Part shown: positions 5,063 to 40,973 of the stretch, piece by piece
Numbering within the stretch: position 1 is the stretch's first letter
How the letters are laid out: each line of letters begins with the position of its first letter
From: an uncultured Kiritimatiellota bacterium
Lineage (GTDB): Bacteria; Verrucomicrobiota; Kiritimatiellia; RFP12; DVOR01
Assembly (NCBI GenBank): GCA_944389585.1
Contig: CALXMW010000001.1
Coordinates: 71,748-135,747 of the forward strand
DNA: 64,000 bases
Direction: 5' to 3'
Made by a program: the position numbers and the translations under genes
The notes under the pieces: generated by a model
Database searches by the model: none
Told to the model about the DNA's origin: nothing
The model's input: the letters and a program-made list of their open reading frames with translations, nothing else

Positions 5063-5083
5063 CCGCGGCCCGCCGCGCCCCAC

Positions 5084-5124
5084 AAAAAAGCCCCCGGCCT
5101 CACAACGAGGCCGGGGGCTTTTTT
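5084..5124. terminator. bidirectional rho-independent terminator
   Basis: A perfect stem of GCCCCCGGCCTC and its complement, with an ACAAC loop, is flanked by an A-tract on the left and a T-tract on the right. It lies between the convergent C10 peptidase and PEP-CTERM genes and can stop both. Confidence 0.93.
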
Positions 5125-5141
5125 GTGGCCATCAGGCAGGC

Positions 5142-5789
5142 TTACGCCACGCGGCGGCGGAGCGCCACCCCCGCCACGCCCAGCGCCAGCAACGCCAGCG
5201 CCGTCGGTTCGGGAATATTCGTGATGGTTGCCGTGCCATACCCGACGTAAGGCGCCCAACCGGTCTTTTCCGAGGTGCCTTGCATGACGGTAACGCCAGA
5301 AGTGCCGGCGCCCGCCGTGTTCGTCACGGCAATCACGAAGTTCACAGGCGTCCCCGCCGAATCGACGACATGCAGCGTGAAGCCCGCTTGGAGCGACACC
5401 TCCTTCGTGAAGGCGAACTGGAGCACCTTGCCGTCGCCAGAGCCGTTCGTGGTAGAGGAGTATTCCGCGTCCGCCGTGACGACGAGCAAGGATTTCGCCA
5501 CCTCCGAACCGGAAGCGTCCCGGATGCTGAGATAGACATCCGTGAAATCGACCGAACTGTTCAGGGCTTTCGCGCAAGAGGCAATGCTGATGGCCGAAAC
5601 GGCGCTCGAGGGCGCGCTCGACACCTTCAGGTAAGCCTCTTCGTCGTTGCTCCCAGAAGTGTAGATGTTGCCCTCAATGTCCCCGGTGGGGAGCGTGGGC
5701 GAACTCGTCCAATCCCACTCGATTGTCACCGCCTGGGCGGCGCCGAGGGCCAGTGCGGCGAAGGCCGCTGTGAGAAATGTCTTCTTCAT
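5142..5789 (-). CDS. PEP-CTERM sorted secreted protein 1
   Basis: The protein has 215 aa. Start ATG 5789 is chosen because MKKTFLTAAFAALALGAAQA is a clean Sec signal peptide with AAGGAG 11 nt upstream. The C-terminal 24 residues begin IPEPTALALLALGVAG and end in LRRRVA. That is the tripartite PEP-CTERM signal (PEP box, hydrophobic span, Arg cluster) recognised by exosortases, so the protein should be exported and processed at the cell envelope. The mature domain (about 20-190) is beta-rich, Ser/Thr/Gly-rich and not recognised. No exosortase gene is in the window. The signal peptide and sorting tail are nearly identical to those of the protein at 35633-36265, and both genes follow the same kind of structured leader, which suggests shared regulation. 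Confidence 0.88.
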   Translation of the reverse strand: MKKTFLTAAFAALALGAAQAVTIEWDWTSSPTLPTGDIEGNIYTSGSNDEEAYLKVSSAPSSAVSAISIASCAKALNSSVDFTDVYLSIRDASGSEVAKSLLVVTADAEYSSTTNGSGDGKVLQFAFTKEVSLQAGFTLHVVDSAGTPVNFVIAVTNTAGAGTSGVTVMQGTSEKTGWAPYVGYGTATITNIPEPTALALLALGVAGVALRRRVA

Positions 5790-5923
5790 GTGTGTCGGTT
5801 CTCCTTCCCCGCCCGAGGGGTGGCCGAAGGAGGTCGGGGCGGGAAAGACGGGGGACCCCTTCGGTGTTGCGCCACGGACACGCGCCCGTGTGCGCCCGTT
5901 CCCGCCGCCCGACACAGCCATAT
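5790..5923 (-). promoter_or_regulatory. conserved second leader module with possible Shine-Dalgarno hairpin
   Basis: This 134 nt stretch, read on the minus strand between structured RNA A and the PEP-CTERM start, is strongly similar to 36266-36401 before the other PEP-CTERM gene. Shared blocks include CACACGGGCGCGTGTC, GTGGCGC, CCCCGTCTTTCCCGCCCCG and GCGGGGAAGGAGAA. The CTTTCCCGCCCC block can pair with the GGGCGGGGAAGG that contains the Shine-Dalgarno, so ribosome access could be controlled. Nucleotide similarity continues across a 1 nt indel, which argues for conserved RNA rather than conserved coding. Confidence 0.65.
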
Positions 5924-6112
5924 AAAAAGACGCACCGCCTTTTTACGCTCTACTGAGGCCCTAGGAAAGCCCTGTCAAGAACGTGCAAAGAAAGTGCGCC
6001 AAATATGGCGCACTTTGCCGAACACGCTGTCTTGACATGAAGTTTCCTAGGTTTCAGTAGACAGCTGTTTCGCGCAAAGCGCAAACGGAGCCGTGGCTTT
6101 CCCACGGCGTGC
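5924..6112 (-). ncRNA. structured RNA, copy A (candidate new family)
   Basis: This roughly 190 nt transcript starts near GCACGC, just after the -10 box. Visible structure: hairpin CCGTGG/CCACGG; a GCGC hairpin; then a long arm of stacked helices CTACTGA/TCAGTAG, CCTAGGAAA/TTTCCTAGG, TGTCAAGA/TCTTGACA, CGTG/CACG and AAAGTGCGCC/GGCGCACTTT. The 5' GCAC..GCC can pair with GGC..GTGC before a CTTTTT tract, closing the molecule. The same fold with different paired bases occurs at 36402-36591 and 38705-38902. Function is unknown. It lies in the leader of a PEP-CTERM gene, either as an upstream terminated sRNA or as part of a cis-regulatory leader. Confidence 0.8.
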
Positions 6113-6116
6113 CAAT

Positions 6117-6146
6117 AGCATAGCACTGCAGGACGCAGGTGTGCAA
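6117..6146 (-). promoter_or_regulatory. sigma70-type promoter of RNA A
   Basis: On the minus strand the boxes are TTGCAC (6141-6146), an 18 nt spacer, and TATGCT (6117-6122) with an upstream TGC extended -10 element. The predicted transcript start falls on the first bases of the closing stem of RNA A. Confidence 0.72.
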
Positions 6147-35632: not shown

Positions 35633-36265
35633 TTACGCCGCACGGCGGCGGAGCGCCACCCCGGCCACGCCCAGCGCCAGCAGCGCCAGCGCCGTCGGCT
35701 CGGGGACGCTGCGGATGTCCTTGGTCTTCGCCAAGGTGTCGATCTGGGCCTGCGTCAGCACGTCGTCGTAGATGGCGACGTCCTCGATCGTCCACGTCTG
35801 GCCGGCGGTGCCCGAGCCGTTCGCGAAGGTCAGCTCAATGCTGTCGCCGAAGGTAACCGAGGGCAAGTTCGAGGCATTCAGGCGGCCATCCAATTCACCG
35901 TCGACGTAGAAGGCGATCTTGGAGGAGCCGTTGGCCTGGCGCGTGGCCGTCAGGATGACCGTGTGCGTGCCGGTGGCCGTCCCGGAGGCCGCCTCACTCC
36001 ACTGATTCCCCATCCGAACGCCCAAGCCGTCCGTGCCGGAATAGGCCAGGAAGGCGCGTTCGCTTGCCCCAAAGGTGACGATGGGGCTGTTGGATTGGGC
36101 ACCAAGACTAGCGAAGTCGCAGTCGACGACCAGGCAGACGGAGAAGCTGTCCGTCGTGCTGTACGTGTAATTGGACTGGCTCTCACGCTCCCAGTCGATG
36201 GTCACCGCCTGGGCGGCGGAGAGGGCGAGGGCGGCGAAGGCCGCGGTGAGAAGTGTCTTCTTCAT
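35633..36265 (-). CDS. PEP-CTERM sorted protein 2, LamG/concanavalin-like
   Basis: The protein has 210 aa. ATG 36265 gives signal peptide MKKTLLTAAFAALALSAAQA with AAGGAG upstream. The C-terminus is VPEPTALALLALGVAG...LRRRAA, a full PEP-CTERM sorting signal. The middle (about 25-180) resembles a LamG-like jellyroll: HTVILTATR, KIAFYVDGELDGRLN and the strand QTWTIEDVAIYDDVLTQAQID, which is the family ending. Such domains bind sugars or proteins at the surface. The end regions are almost identical to those of the protein at 5142-5789 while the mature domains differ, suggesting one sorting and regulatory cassette attached to different cargo. Confidence 0.88.
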   Translation of the reverse strand: MKKTLLTAAFAALALSAAQAVTIDWERESQSNYTYSTTDSFSVCLVVDCDFASLGAQSNSPIVTFGASERAFLAYSGTDGLGVRMGNQWSEAASGTATGTHTVILTATRQANGSSKIAFYVDGELDGRLNASNLPSVTFGDSIELTFANGSGTAGQTWTIEDVAIYDDVLTQAQIDTLAKTKDIRSVPEPTALALLALGVAGVALRRRAA

Positions 36266-36401
36266 GTTGTGGTGTTTCTCCTTCCCCGCCCCACCGAGAA
36301 GCCGGAGGGAACCGGGGCGGGAAAGACGGGGAGCCCCTCTGGCTGTCGCGCCACAGACACGCGCCCGTGTGCGCACGCCTCGCCTTGCCACAACATCCCA
36401 T
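36266..36401 (-). promoter_or_regulatory. conserved second leader module of PEP-CTERM gene 2
   Basis: This is the homologue of 5790-5923. On the minus strand CTTTCCCGCCCC can pair with GGGGCGGGGAAGG, burying the Shine-Dalgarno in a stem of eight uninterrupted pairs plus a bulge and three more. The CACACGGGCGCGTGTC block upstream can form alternative hairpins (ACACG/CGTGT or CACGG/CTGTG). It differs from copy A by a 1 nt indel within otherwise matching sequence. Confidence 0.65.
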
Positions 36402-36591
36402 AAAAAAGCGCACAGCCTTTCCATGTTCCTGTTGAGGCCCTGAGAAAGCCCTATCAAAGCACATGCAAAGAAAGTGCGCCCAATGACGCACTTTGCCGAA
36501 CGTGTCGCTTTGATAGTGAAAGTTCTCAGGTTTCAACAGGCGACGTTGTCACGCAAAGTGAAGCGTTTGCCGCGGCTCTCCCACGGCGTGC
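36402..36591 (-). ncRNA. structured RNA, copy B (candidate new family)
   Basis: Same architecture as copy A with changed but still paired bases: hairpin CCGTGG/CCGCGG; arm helices CCTGTTGA/TCAACAGG, CCTGAGAA/TTCTCAGG, TATCAAAG/CTTTGATA, CACG/TGTG and AAAGTGCGTC/GGCGCACTTT. Unpaired bases kept in both include GAAAC, GGCCTC, GGGCT and TTCGGC. The 5' GCAC..GCC can pair with GGC..GTGC shortly before six T. Followed by the second leader module and PEP-CTERM gene 2. Confidence 0.8.
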
Positions 36592-36595
36592 CAAT

Positions 36596-38674: not shown

Positions 38675-38702
38675 TTGGAAATTGTGCGGCTTTTGCTATA
38701 CT
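38675..38702 (+). promoter_or_regulatory. promoter of RNA C and methyltransferase
   Basis: TTGGAA (38675-38680), a 16 nt spacer and TATACT (38697-38702) with a TGC extension. Just upstream (38643-38658) lies a perfect small hairpin GCGTGC-TAAC-GCACGC whose role is unclear. Confidence 0.68.
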
Positions 38703-38704
38703 GT

Positions 38705-38902
38705 AGGCACGCTGCGGGTGAGCCGCAGTCTAATGCTTGCGCTTTTGCGCGACAAGTTGCACTCAACGAAACTTAGGACACTTCGGAAACAGAGCAACGT
38801 GTTGTGGCAAGGCGTGCCGTCATTGGCACGTCTCCTTTTCACGTTCTGTTTCGGGCTCGTCCTAAGGCCTCGTTGGGTACGTGATTAGGAGGCGTGCTTT
38901 TT
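38705..38902 (+). ncRNA. structured RNA, copy C, leader of the methyltransferase gene (candidate riboregulator)
   Basis: Same fold as copies A and B with mostly different paired bases: hairpin CTGCGG/CCGCAG; GCGC hairpin; arm helices CTCAACGA/TCGTTGGG, CTTAGGAC/GTCCTAAG, GAAACAGA/TCTGTTTC, AACGTG/CACGTT and GGCGTGCC/GGCACGTC. The 5' GCACGC (38707-38712) pairs perfectly with GCGTGC (38892-38897), which is followed by five T and then directly by ATG 38903. That closing stem overlaps the end of the AGGAGG ribosome site (38887-38892). If it forms, it could act as a terminator or block translation of the methyltransferase. No ligand is known. Confidence 0.8.
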
Positions 38903-39889
38903 ATGGCGGACAACAAAGGACTACACAACGCTAAGCGTGCGAAGAAGGATGAGTTCTATACGCAACTCTCAGACATTGAGAACGAGTTGCGGCATTATCG
39001 TCATCATTTCCGGGGCAAAACGGTGCTCTGCAACTGCGATGATCCTCGCGTCTCTAACTTCTTCCATTACTTTGCGATGAACTTCGAGGTTCTGGGTCTG
39101 AAGCGACTGATCACCACCTGCTACAAGAATCAGGATCCTGATCTCTTTAGCATGAACACGTATGATCAAGCCATCTGGCTGGAGTATCTGGGCGACACGA
39201 ATGGGAATCGGGTGCCAGATCCCGAAGAAATTGGCATTCGCTACTTCAAGGGCGATGGGGACTTTCGCAGTCAAGAGTGCATTGAGCTCCTCAAGCAAGC
39301 GGACATTGTTGTCACCAATCCGCCTTTTTCGTTATTTAAGGAATACTTGGGACAACTGGTTGAATACGGGAAGAAGTTCTTAATCATCGGTCATCAAAAC
39401 GCTATCACCTATAAGGAGGTCTTTCCGCTTCTTCGAGCCAACGAGGTTTGGTTGGGCTATGGATTCAAAGGGAATGCTGGTTTTTTCATCTCCAAATATG
39501 AAGATGTCGCCACGGCGAGTTCGCATCGCGAGGGAATGATTCGCGTTTCGGGAGTGACGTGGTTCACTAATTTGGATATGCCCAAACGCCATGAAGACCT
39601 TATCCTCTATCGAACTTATTCGCCGGAGGCCTATCCGGAGTACGACAATTACAAGGCCATCGAAGTAAGCAAGACTGCCGACATCCCAATAGACTATGAT
39701 GGTGTCATGGGCGTACCCATCACGTTCCTCGACAAATACAATCCCGAACAATTCGAGTTGATTTGGACAACGGACCGCGGTGGCGATGGCATGCTTGAAG
39801 ACCTCAAGAAACCACACGTGCGGTATGATGCTCCCGTCGTTCATGGCGAGGGCGTGTACAAAAGGATTCTGATTCGCAGGAGGAAATGA
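38903..39889 (+). CDS. adenine-specific DNA methyltransferase, EcoRI-methylase family
   Basis: The protein has 328 aa. ATG 38903 is preferred over the in-frame GTG at 38894, which lies inside the RNA C closing stem. The opening KRAKKDEFYTQLSDIENEL and the amino-methyltransferase motif IV TNPPFSLFKEY (about 137-147) identify the EcoRI-type N6-adenine methylase family; FRGKTVLCNCDDPRVSNFF near 37-55 fits the SAM-binding region. GC content and codon use are clearly lower than in neighbouring genes, a sign of transfer. AGGAGG precedes the next gene, a DUF262-HNH protein, by a few bases, so the two form a probable modification-nuclease pair. Confidence 0.88.
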   Translation: MADNKGLHNAKRAKKDEFYTQLSDIENELRHYRHHFRGKTVLCNCDDPRVSNFFHYFAMNFEVLGLKRLITTCYKNQDPDLFSMNTYDQAIWLEYLGDTNGNRVPDPEEIGIRYFKGDGDFRSQECIELLKQADIVVTNPPFSLFKEYLGQLVEYGKKFLIIGHQNAITYKEVFPLLRANEVWLGYGFKGNAGFFISKYEDVATASSHREGMIRVSGVTWFTNLDMPKRHEDLILYRTYSPEAYPEYDNYKAIEVSKTADIPIDYDGVMGVPITFLDKYNPEQFELIWTTDRGGDGMLEDLKKPHVRYDAPVVHGEGVYKRILIRRRK

Positions 39890-39890
39890 G

Positions 39891-40973
39891 ATGGATATCA
39901 CGTTGAGAGCGGTGAGCGTCAGGGAGCTGACGGCGGGTTATTGTGATGATGGTGAGCAGGGGGTGCGTGGTTATGCGGGGAAACTCGACATCCGGCCGCC
40001 TTATCAGCGGGAGTTCGTCTACAATGACGTTCAGCGGGAGGCGGTGATTGACACGGTGACGAACGGTTATCCGCTGAATGTGATGTATTGGGCGGACCGC
40101 GAGGATGGCACCTTTGAAGTAATCGATGGGCAGCAGCGCACGCTGAGCCTATGCCAATATGTGGATGGCGTTTTCGCGCATAACATGCGCTACTTCCATA
40201 ATCTGACGAAGGATGAGCAGGAGCAGATTCTGGACTATAAGGTGATGGTCTATGTCTGCAAAGGGACGGACAGCGAGAAGCTGGCGTGGTTTCGCATCAT
40301 CAACATCGCGGGCGAGGAGCTGACGAATCAGGAATTGCTCAACGCGGTTTATAGCGGGCCCTTTGTAACGGATGCGAAGCGACATTTCAGCAAACAGGGG
40401 TGCCCGGCCTATAAAATCGCTTCGGAATATCTTTCAGGGAGCGTGGTTCGGCAGGATTATCTGGCGACGGCGTTGGATTGGATTTCCAATGGATATAGCG
40501 AGGGTTATCTGGCCACCCATCAGCACGATCCGAACGCCAATACACTGTGGCTCCACTTCCAGAACGTCATCAATTGGGTGCGAGCAACCTTCCCAAAGTA
40601 TCGCAAGGAGATGAAGGGGGTGGATTGGGGCACCCTCTGGCGGTGCCATCATGAGCGTCAGTTGGATGTGGCGGCTCTGGAACAAGAGGTTAAACGCTTG
40701 ATGGCAGACAGCGACGTGCAGAAGAAAAAGGGTATCTACGCCTATGTGCTAGATGGCGATGAACGTCATCTGAATCTGCGCGCCTTCGATGACAACACCA
40801 AGCGCGAGGTCTACGAACGCCAGGAAGGCATCTGCCCCAGGTGCGGCAAACGGTTCGACATCAAGGAGATGGAGGCCGACCACATCACGCCGTGGTCGCA
40901 GGGCGGTCATACCATCGCCGAAAACTGCCAAATGCTCTGCCGCACCTGTAACCGCCGCAAAAGCGACAAATAG
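39891..40973 (+). CDS. DUF262 (ParB/sulfiredoxin-like) protein with C-terminal HNH nuclease domain
   Basis: The protein has 360 aa. The N-terminal DUF262 domain (about 1-210) shows PPYQREFVYN near 37 and the family nucleotide-handling motif IDGQQRTLSL near 76. A C-terminal HNH domain (about 300-360) has zinc pairs CPRCGKRF and CRTCNRRK and the catalytic core MEADHITPWSQGGHT with the HNH His and downstream Asn. DUF262-HNH proteins are known parts of anti-phage nucleases (GmrSD and relatives). The gene starts one base after the methyltransferase stop with an AGGAGG site, and shares its lower GC. It may be the restriction partner, but it lacks a separate specificity subunit. Confidence 0.88.
   Translation: MDITLRAVSVRELTAGYCDDGEQGVRGYAGKLDIRPPYQREFVYNDVQREAVIDTVTNGYPLNVMYWADREDGTFEVIDGQQRTLSLCQYVDGVFAHNMRYFHNLTKDEQEQILDYKVMVYVCKGTDSEKLAWFRIINIAGEELTNQELLNAVYSGPFVTDAKRHFSKQGCPAYKIASEYLSGSVVRQDYLATALDWISNGYSEGYLATHQHDPNANTLWLHFQNVINWVRATFPKYRKEMKGVDWGTLWRCHHERQLDVAALEQEVKRLMADSDVQKKKGIYAYVLDGDERHLNLRAFDDNTKREVYERQEGICPRCGKRFDIKEMEADHITPWSQGGHTIAENCQMLCRTCNRRKSDK

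Follow-up and report, generated by a model that had tools for sequence, protein, structure and literature searches.

A multicopy structured RNA upstream of restriction-modification and surface genes in an uncultured Kiritimatiellota bacterium and its relatives: a probable cis-acting transcription attenuator

Introduction

Bacterial leader RNAs commonly control the genes that they precede. In trp-type attenuators, with their 1:2, 2:3 and 3:4 segment pairings, and in terminator-antiterminator riboswitches, mutually exclusive antiterminator and terminator helices lie upstream of the gene, and a U-run directly follows the terminator helix. The c-di-GMP riboswitches (GEMM) are a single class that occurs in many copies per genome before surface-related genes, and the EAR and put RNAs and LoaP-bound leaders, some of which precede surface-polysaccharide genes, are structured leaders that act on distant terminators. 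Acido-Lenti-1 (RF01687) has been reported from Acidobacteria and Lentisphaerae and is listed as probably not cis-regulatory (Table 1 of PMC2864571).

Here, we describe a structured RNA of about 190 nt that occurs three times in the window, the whole stretch of 64,000 nucleotides analysed, which is part of a 1.95-Mb draft genome. Like trp-type attenuators and terminator-antiterminator riboswitches, it has exclusive helices upstream of a gene and a U-run directly after the predicted terminator helix; unlike them, it combines a large constant domain, a probable loop-loop contact and possibly two four-way junctions, and it recurs many times in a genome, ahead of surface and defence genes that are unrelated. 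No leader peptide of the trp type was seen: by inspection, the own-genus copies show no Shine-Dalgarno sequence plus start codon before the long arm. With GEMM it shares the pattern of a multicopy class before surface-related genes, yet it matches no Rfam model, differs in size and fold, and counts restriction-modification genes among its targets. Unlike the terminators on which EAR, put and LoaP leaders act, its putative terminator is part of the element itself. An attenuator leader is thus a known kind of RNA, while the architecture and target set seen here are unusual.

Results

The original prediction recognised three loci that share a fold but not primary sequence. Copies A, B and C (Table 1) are indeed true homologues, but their sequences differ less than was stated: A and B share 76% identity, and a blastn search recovers many copies, with 23 matches to copy A in its own genome. 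Nor are there only three loci, as a covariance model built from an alignment of 20 own-genome copies (R1) identifies 34 copies in this genome at E < 1e-8. R1 matches occur in 45 of 59 genomes, the own genome counted, and a second model built from 69 diverse copies (R2) extends the family at E <= 1e-6 to 126 of 388 genomes sampled from the phylum and to 71 of 197 genera, other classes included. Copy number reaches 18 per genome in other families and 16 in another class. Altogether the covariance-model searches, which covered the phylum, return hundreds of homologues with strong covariation, as the original prediction had expected of a functional RNA. A DNA pattern derived from the element matches MAGs of uncultured Kiritimatiellaeota, uncultured Lentisphaeraceae and Candidatus Spyradenecus faecavium, the last placed by NCBI in Lentisphaerota, within the PVC group. 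Short matches at L057:2817-2901 and L107:1981-2066 contain the first two hairpins, P1 and P2, without the long arm, and are possible truncated leaders.

The RNA also matches no class of Rfam 15, and the original prediction had recognised none. Against Rfam 15 (4227 models), the window gave no match besides tRNAs at the gathering threshold, and copy A and 16 diverse loci gave no credible match at permissive E-values. Among the classes in Rfam 15, which include T-box, SAM, c-di-GMP and cobalamin, no family model matched the scanned copies, and RF01687, singled out earlier as the motif to compare, is in the searched library and never appeared, at gathering or permissive E-values, for copy A and the 16 loci. 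Low-scoring microRNA matches were set aside as chance matches to palindromes. Our literature search found no paper describing the RNA, nor one on Kiritimatiellota riboswitches. The family is therefore new as far as these sources reach, which for the 224 candidate RNAs of a 2017 paper means as far as they are in Rfam 15.

Table 1. Features of the three copies in the window and of the genes that follow them
Feature	Position	Strand	Evidence or remarks
Copy A	5922..6113	minus	5' end 6113, 3' end (U-run) 5922; R1 match 187 bits, E 1e-54
Copy B	36400..36592	minus	R1 match 175 bits
Copy C	38706..38905	plus	R1 match 152.5 bits
Extended -10 promoter element, copy A, GTGCTATGCTATTGG	6112..6126	minus	same place in own-genus copies
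P1 hairpin, copy A, GCCGUGG-GAAAG-CCACGGC	6090..6108	minus	cells paired 100% (20 copies), 96% (69 copies)
P2 hairpin, copy A, UUUGCGC-UUU-GCGCGAA	6069..6085	minus	helix alignments of 20 and 69 copies
Segment J, copy A, GCUGUC	6060..6065	minus	partner is K; copy-specific duplex
Segment K, copy A, GACAGCGUG, between P6 and P7	6023..6031	minus	copy-specific duplex with J
Long arm P4-P5-P6-P7-P8, copy A	5950..6060	minus	helix pairing and covariation; the "long arm" of the original prediction
arm3, copy A, 3' strand of P8 and P7	5981..6000	minus	partner is own 5' strand or tail
H5b mini-hairpin, copy A, GGGC-[P5b]-GCCU	5956..5972	minus	covariation across copies
Tail with U-run, copy A, putative terminator half pairing with arm3	5922..5948	minus	duplex and U-run analysis
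Promoter, copy C, TTGGAA, 16 nt, TATACT preceded by TG	38675..38702	plus	
arm3, copy C, complementary to copy C tail	38825..38845	plus	duplex -32.1 kcal/mol
Tail, copy C, putative terminator half, holds Shine-Dalgarno, ends UUUUU	38877..38902	plus	duplex analysis
Shine-Dalgarno AGGAGG of next gene, within copy C	38887..38892	plus	
Start codon ATG of next gene, within copy C	38903..38905	plus	
PEP-CTERM gene downstream of copy A	5145..5789	minus	start codon 132 nt after RNA
PEP-CTERM gene downstream of copy B	35636..36265	minus	start codon 134 nt after RNA
EcoRI-type adenine methyltransferase gene, predicted target of copy C	38903..39889	plus	PF13651, E 3.5e-134

From 5' to 3', the element consists of the P1 and P2 hairpins, segment J, the arm P4-P5-P6-P7-P8 and the tail. 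The helices quoted in the original prediction (CTACTGA/TCAGTAG, CCTGTTGA/TCAACAGG and CTCAACGA/TCGTTGGG) and the segments that it described as kept (GAAAC, GGCCTC, GGGCT and GGCAA) are all present once A and B are taken from the minus strand and C from the plus strand. The region of copy A folds with a z-score of -7.2 (plus strand folded). In the alignment of 20 own-genome copies, standard pairs fill 91.5% of 909 helix cells; shuffling lowers this to 74.6%, and shifting the partners by one to three columns to 34-52%. Changes on both sides are seen in 34 of 47 pairs. Among 69 copies from many genera the contrast widens to 93.0% against 64.9% in shuffled controls, both sides have changed in 46 of the 47 pairs, and P4 is paired in 99.7% of cells, bearing out the earlier claim that covariation marks a functional RNA. 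Since the 69-copy alignment was fitted to the model, we added a column-pair analysis of a diverse alignment, A8, with sequence weighting and average-product correction, in which the top 25 pairs all fall within predicted helices; A8 is itself model-aligned and so not fully independent, and the slid and shuffled controls are far lower. Covariation across the helices is overwhelming. A closing helix between 5' GGCACGC and 3' GCGUGC was considered and dropped, as 5' ends reading CTCACG, GTCACC and CCCACG have no compensating change.

Departures from standard helix pairing are G·U far more often than A·C (478 against 137), which fixes the transcribed strand and argues that selection acts on the RNA of that strand and not on the DNA. 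This bears on a DNA-level explanation, in which the element would be a mobile hairpin or a REP-like or attC-like site, with selection on its palindromes as single-stranded DNA. In favour of this, the element is a dispersed imperfect palindrome of high copy number, conserved in structure and variable in sequence. The G·U bias, the fixed orientation to promoter and gene together with the U-run, and the lack of any match in a pattern scan of viral contigs make this explanation highly improbable.

Three further pairings add to the hairpins and arm helices, the third of them at P5 (next paragraph). Segment J, just 5' of P4, pairs with segment K more strongly within a copy than across copies (mean -9.3 versus -5.6 kcal/mol, n = 80), and this specificity recurs in other classes (z -8.3). 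The strand that we call arm3 likewise forms a copy-specific duplex with the tail, at -27.7 kcal/mol with its own tail versus -18.7 kcal/mol between copies (n = 80, permutation p < 0.001; z -13.9 in other classes). The arm3:tail helix is 17.5 bp on average. The two partners of arm3 are near in strength, with means of -22.8 kcal/mol for the hairpin and -26.6 kcal/mol for the tail duplex, and tail pairing is the stronger in 125 of 155 copies.

The geometry of the core depends on P5. The motifs RGGY and RCCU, which flank the P5 3' strand, covary (C-G 101, U-A 18, C-A 0, U-G 3), counts that ignore relatedness and make p-values only indicative, but the change recurs in separate families. Apart from the nested helices and their extension, the A8 column-pair map has no stronger pair than this one (columns 288 and 301). 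GAAA and UUUC are placed likewise around the P5 5' strand, with too little variation for covariation to show. The RGGY/RCCU covariation points to P5 as a contact between the loops of two short hairpins, which would sit with P4 and P6 in a four-way junction, much as in a tRNA cloverleaf whose two loops touch. With P5 in this form, J:K and arm3:tail could add a second four-way junction that again includes P4 and P6, whereas they could not coexist with a straight P4-P5-P6 rod. We had dropped the idea of J:K and arm3:tail as simple pseudoknots on a continuous rod on grounds of geometry (zero-nucleotide linkers over about 23 bp), and after the H5b covariation it may be revived in a side-by-side form. 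In either the rod or the double-junction form, arm3 can pair with its own hairpin strand or with the tail, but not with both.

Signals for transcription start and stop flank this structure. Of 64 own-genus copies, 56 have TGnTAY in the 18 nt upstream, and in 47 it lies at -12; the own-genus RNA begins at GGCACGC just after the -10 element. A consensus promoter scan missed A and B, where the -10 is evident from the aligned copies. At the other end, at least 5 T within 8 nt directly follow the arm3:tail helix in 134 of 155 copies (background T about 0.22), the remaining 21 having weaker U-runs (fewer than 5 T in 8). The arm3:tail helix and U-run are together a predicted intrinsic terminator, which a local terminator scan missed in A and B on account of the long loop of the helix. 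Many own-genus copies hold the Shine-Dalgarno sequence of the next gene within the tail, and its start codon comes immediately after the U-run. The usual arrangement in other families is a gene start some tens of bases farther downstream. In both versions, arm3:tail pairing would switch the gene off. The tail of the PEP-CTERM copies also holds a second, local hairpin, which could terminate transcription without any switch. Between the RNA and the PEP-CTERM start codon lies a second conserved element, GCGCACACGGGCGCGTGTCTGTGGCGC, on the minus strand at about 5866-5893 and 36345-36372; it accompanies PEP-CTERM genes with long spacers and is also present at loci L002, L006, L011 and L013. Beyond copy A's PEP-CTERM gene, a perfect 22-bp inverted repeat with A/T runs (5080-5128) is an ordinary strong two-way terminator.

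By a simple ORF rule rather than a gene caller, a same-strand gene follows the RNA, which thus lies in cis, upstream and co-directional. By coordinate comparison, the RNA stands upstream on the same strand of 16 of the 32 PEP-CTERM genes in its own genome, where other targets include glycosyltransferases, acyltransferases, polysaccharide-related genes, HsdM, Mrr/ResIII restriction enzymes and DNA methylases. In other families the targets are EcoRI-type, D12 and N6/N4 methylases, type I/III restriction and SNF2 helicases, a QatA-like KAP ATPase, lipoproteins and BspA-like surface proteins; several downstream proteins there (L071, L120, L132, L190, L191, L196, L197, L206, L211) begin with a zinc ribbon. 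The EcoRI-type methylase gene after copy C is followed by a GmrSD_N + HNH nuclease gene (39891-40973), and copy C seems to be the leader of a restriction-modification-like pair. Among 30 EcoRI-type methylase loci from related genomes, the RNA is directly upstream in 20, in many genera, and about half of the ten loci without it are gene fragments or near contig ends. We estimate the number expected by chance at well under one, given some 1 to 34 RNA copies per genome of a few thousand genes, an estimate for the EcoRI-type loci alone.

This arrangement also bears on whether each copy could be an independent small RNA of about 190 nt, released at its own terminator to act elsewhere. Its own promoter, its terminator-like 3' end and the many paralogues per genome would all suit a trans-acting family, which nonetheless seems unlikely when so many own-genus copies carry the next gene's Shine-Dalgarno sequence and start codon in or directly after their 3' end, and when a single gene family, the EcoRI-type methylases, lies directly downstream in many genera. 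Terminated leaders might, in addition, play a side role in trans. Alternatively, the RNA might modify polymerase for antitermination or serve as a protein-bound leader in the manner of EAR, put or LoaP leaders, aiding the transcription of long surface and defence operons, with the tail helix as a default terminator only. We judge this quite unlikely: it would suit the surface polysaccharide genes among the targets, as for EAR and LoaP leaders, and the large constant domain with conserved loops around P5, but the predicted terminator lies within the element and uses one strand of the antiterminator hairpin, which is the arrangement of a local attenuator, and many targets are single short genes.

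Discussion

Helices that share a strand (arm3 with arm5 or with the tail), a U-run and a co-directional gene in cis are all present in this RNA, as in an attenuator, and a conserved core around P5 is seen along with a 3' part predicted to switch, although the conserved residues may serve folding only. The best reading of these features is a new attenuator or riboswitch-like class. The element is, in our view, probably a leader RNA acting in cis to switch transcription on or off by attenuation, and in many own-genus copies it would additionally hide the Shine-Dalgarno sequence. The analysis thus supports something more specific than the functional RNA of the original prediction, namely a terminator/antiterminator leader; that prediction had missed the alternative pairings, the way the RNA overlaps downstream genes and its nature as a leader.

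We propose that arm3 acts as one strand with two mutually exclusive partners. When arm3 is kept in the apical hairpin P7/P8, the putative antiterminator, the tail would remain free and RNA polymerase would read into the gene. When the tail captures arm3, the resulting helix of about 17 bp, ending in the U-run, would stop transcription, and where the Shine-Dalgarno sequence lies in the tail, the same helix would bury it. The core, comprising the J:K helix, P4, P6 and P5, the last probably a loop-loop contact between two mini-hairpins, would decide how easily the tail reaches arm3, and a ligand, protein or stress signal may act on this core. The analysis establishes homology, structure, strand, both pairings of arm3, the U-run, the promoter and the gene context, whereas termination in the cell, the choice of default state and the action of a signal on the core are inferred. 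As a counterpoint to a switch, the full P4-P8 arm is the minimum-energy fold and very stable, so that the tail must compete in time.

The targets do not point to one metabolite. A more far-reaching possibility, which we put forward tentatively, is that the family is a new phylum-wide riboswitch-like class. It would be built from two zero-linker four-way junctions that a kissing helix joins, would respond to a single cellular signal, be it phage attack, envelope stress or a second messenger, and would control restriction-modification genes, other anti-phage genes and surface genes together as one regulon. The presence of up to 34 copies per genome, phylum-wide, before restriction-modification, anti-phage and surface genes points to RNA control of defence and the cell surface as one regulon. 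The signal, once found, would show what makes these bacteria change their coat and arm their restriction systems.
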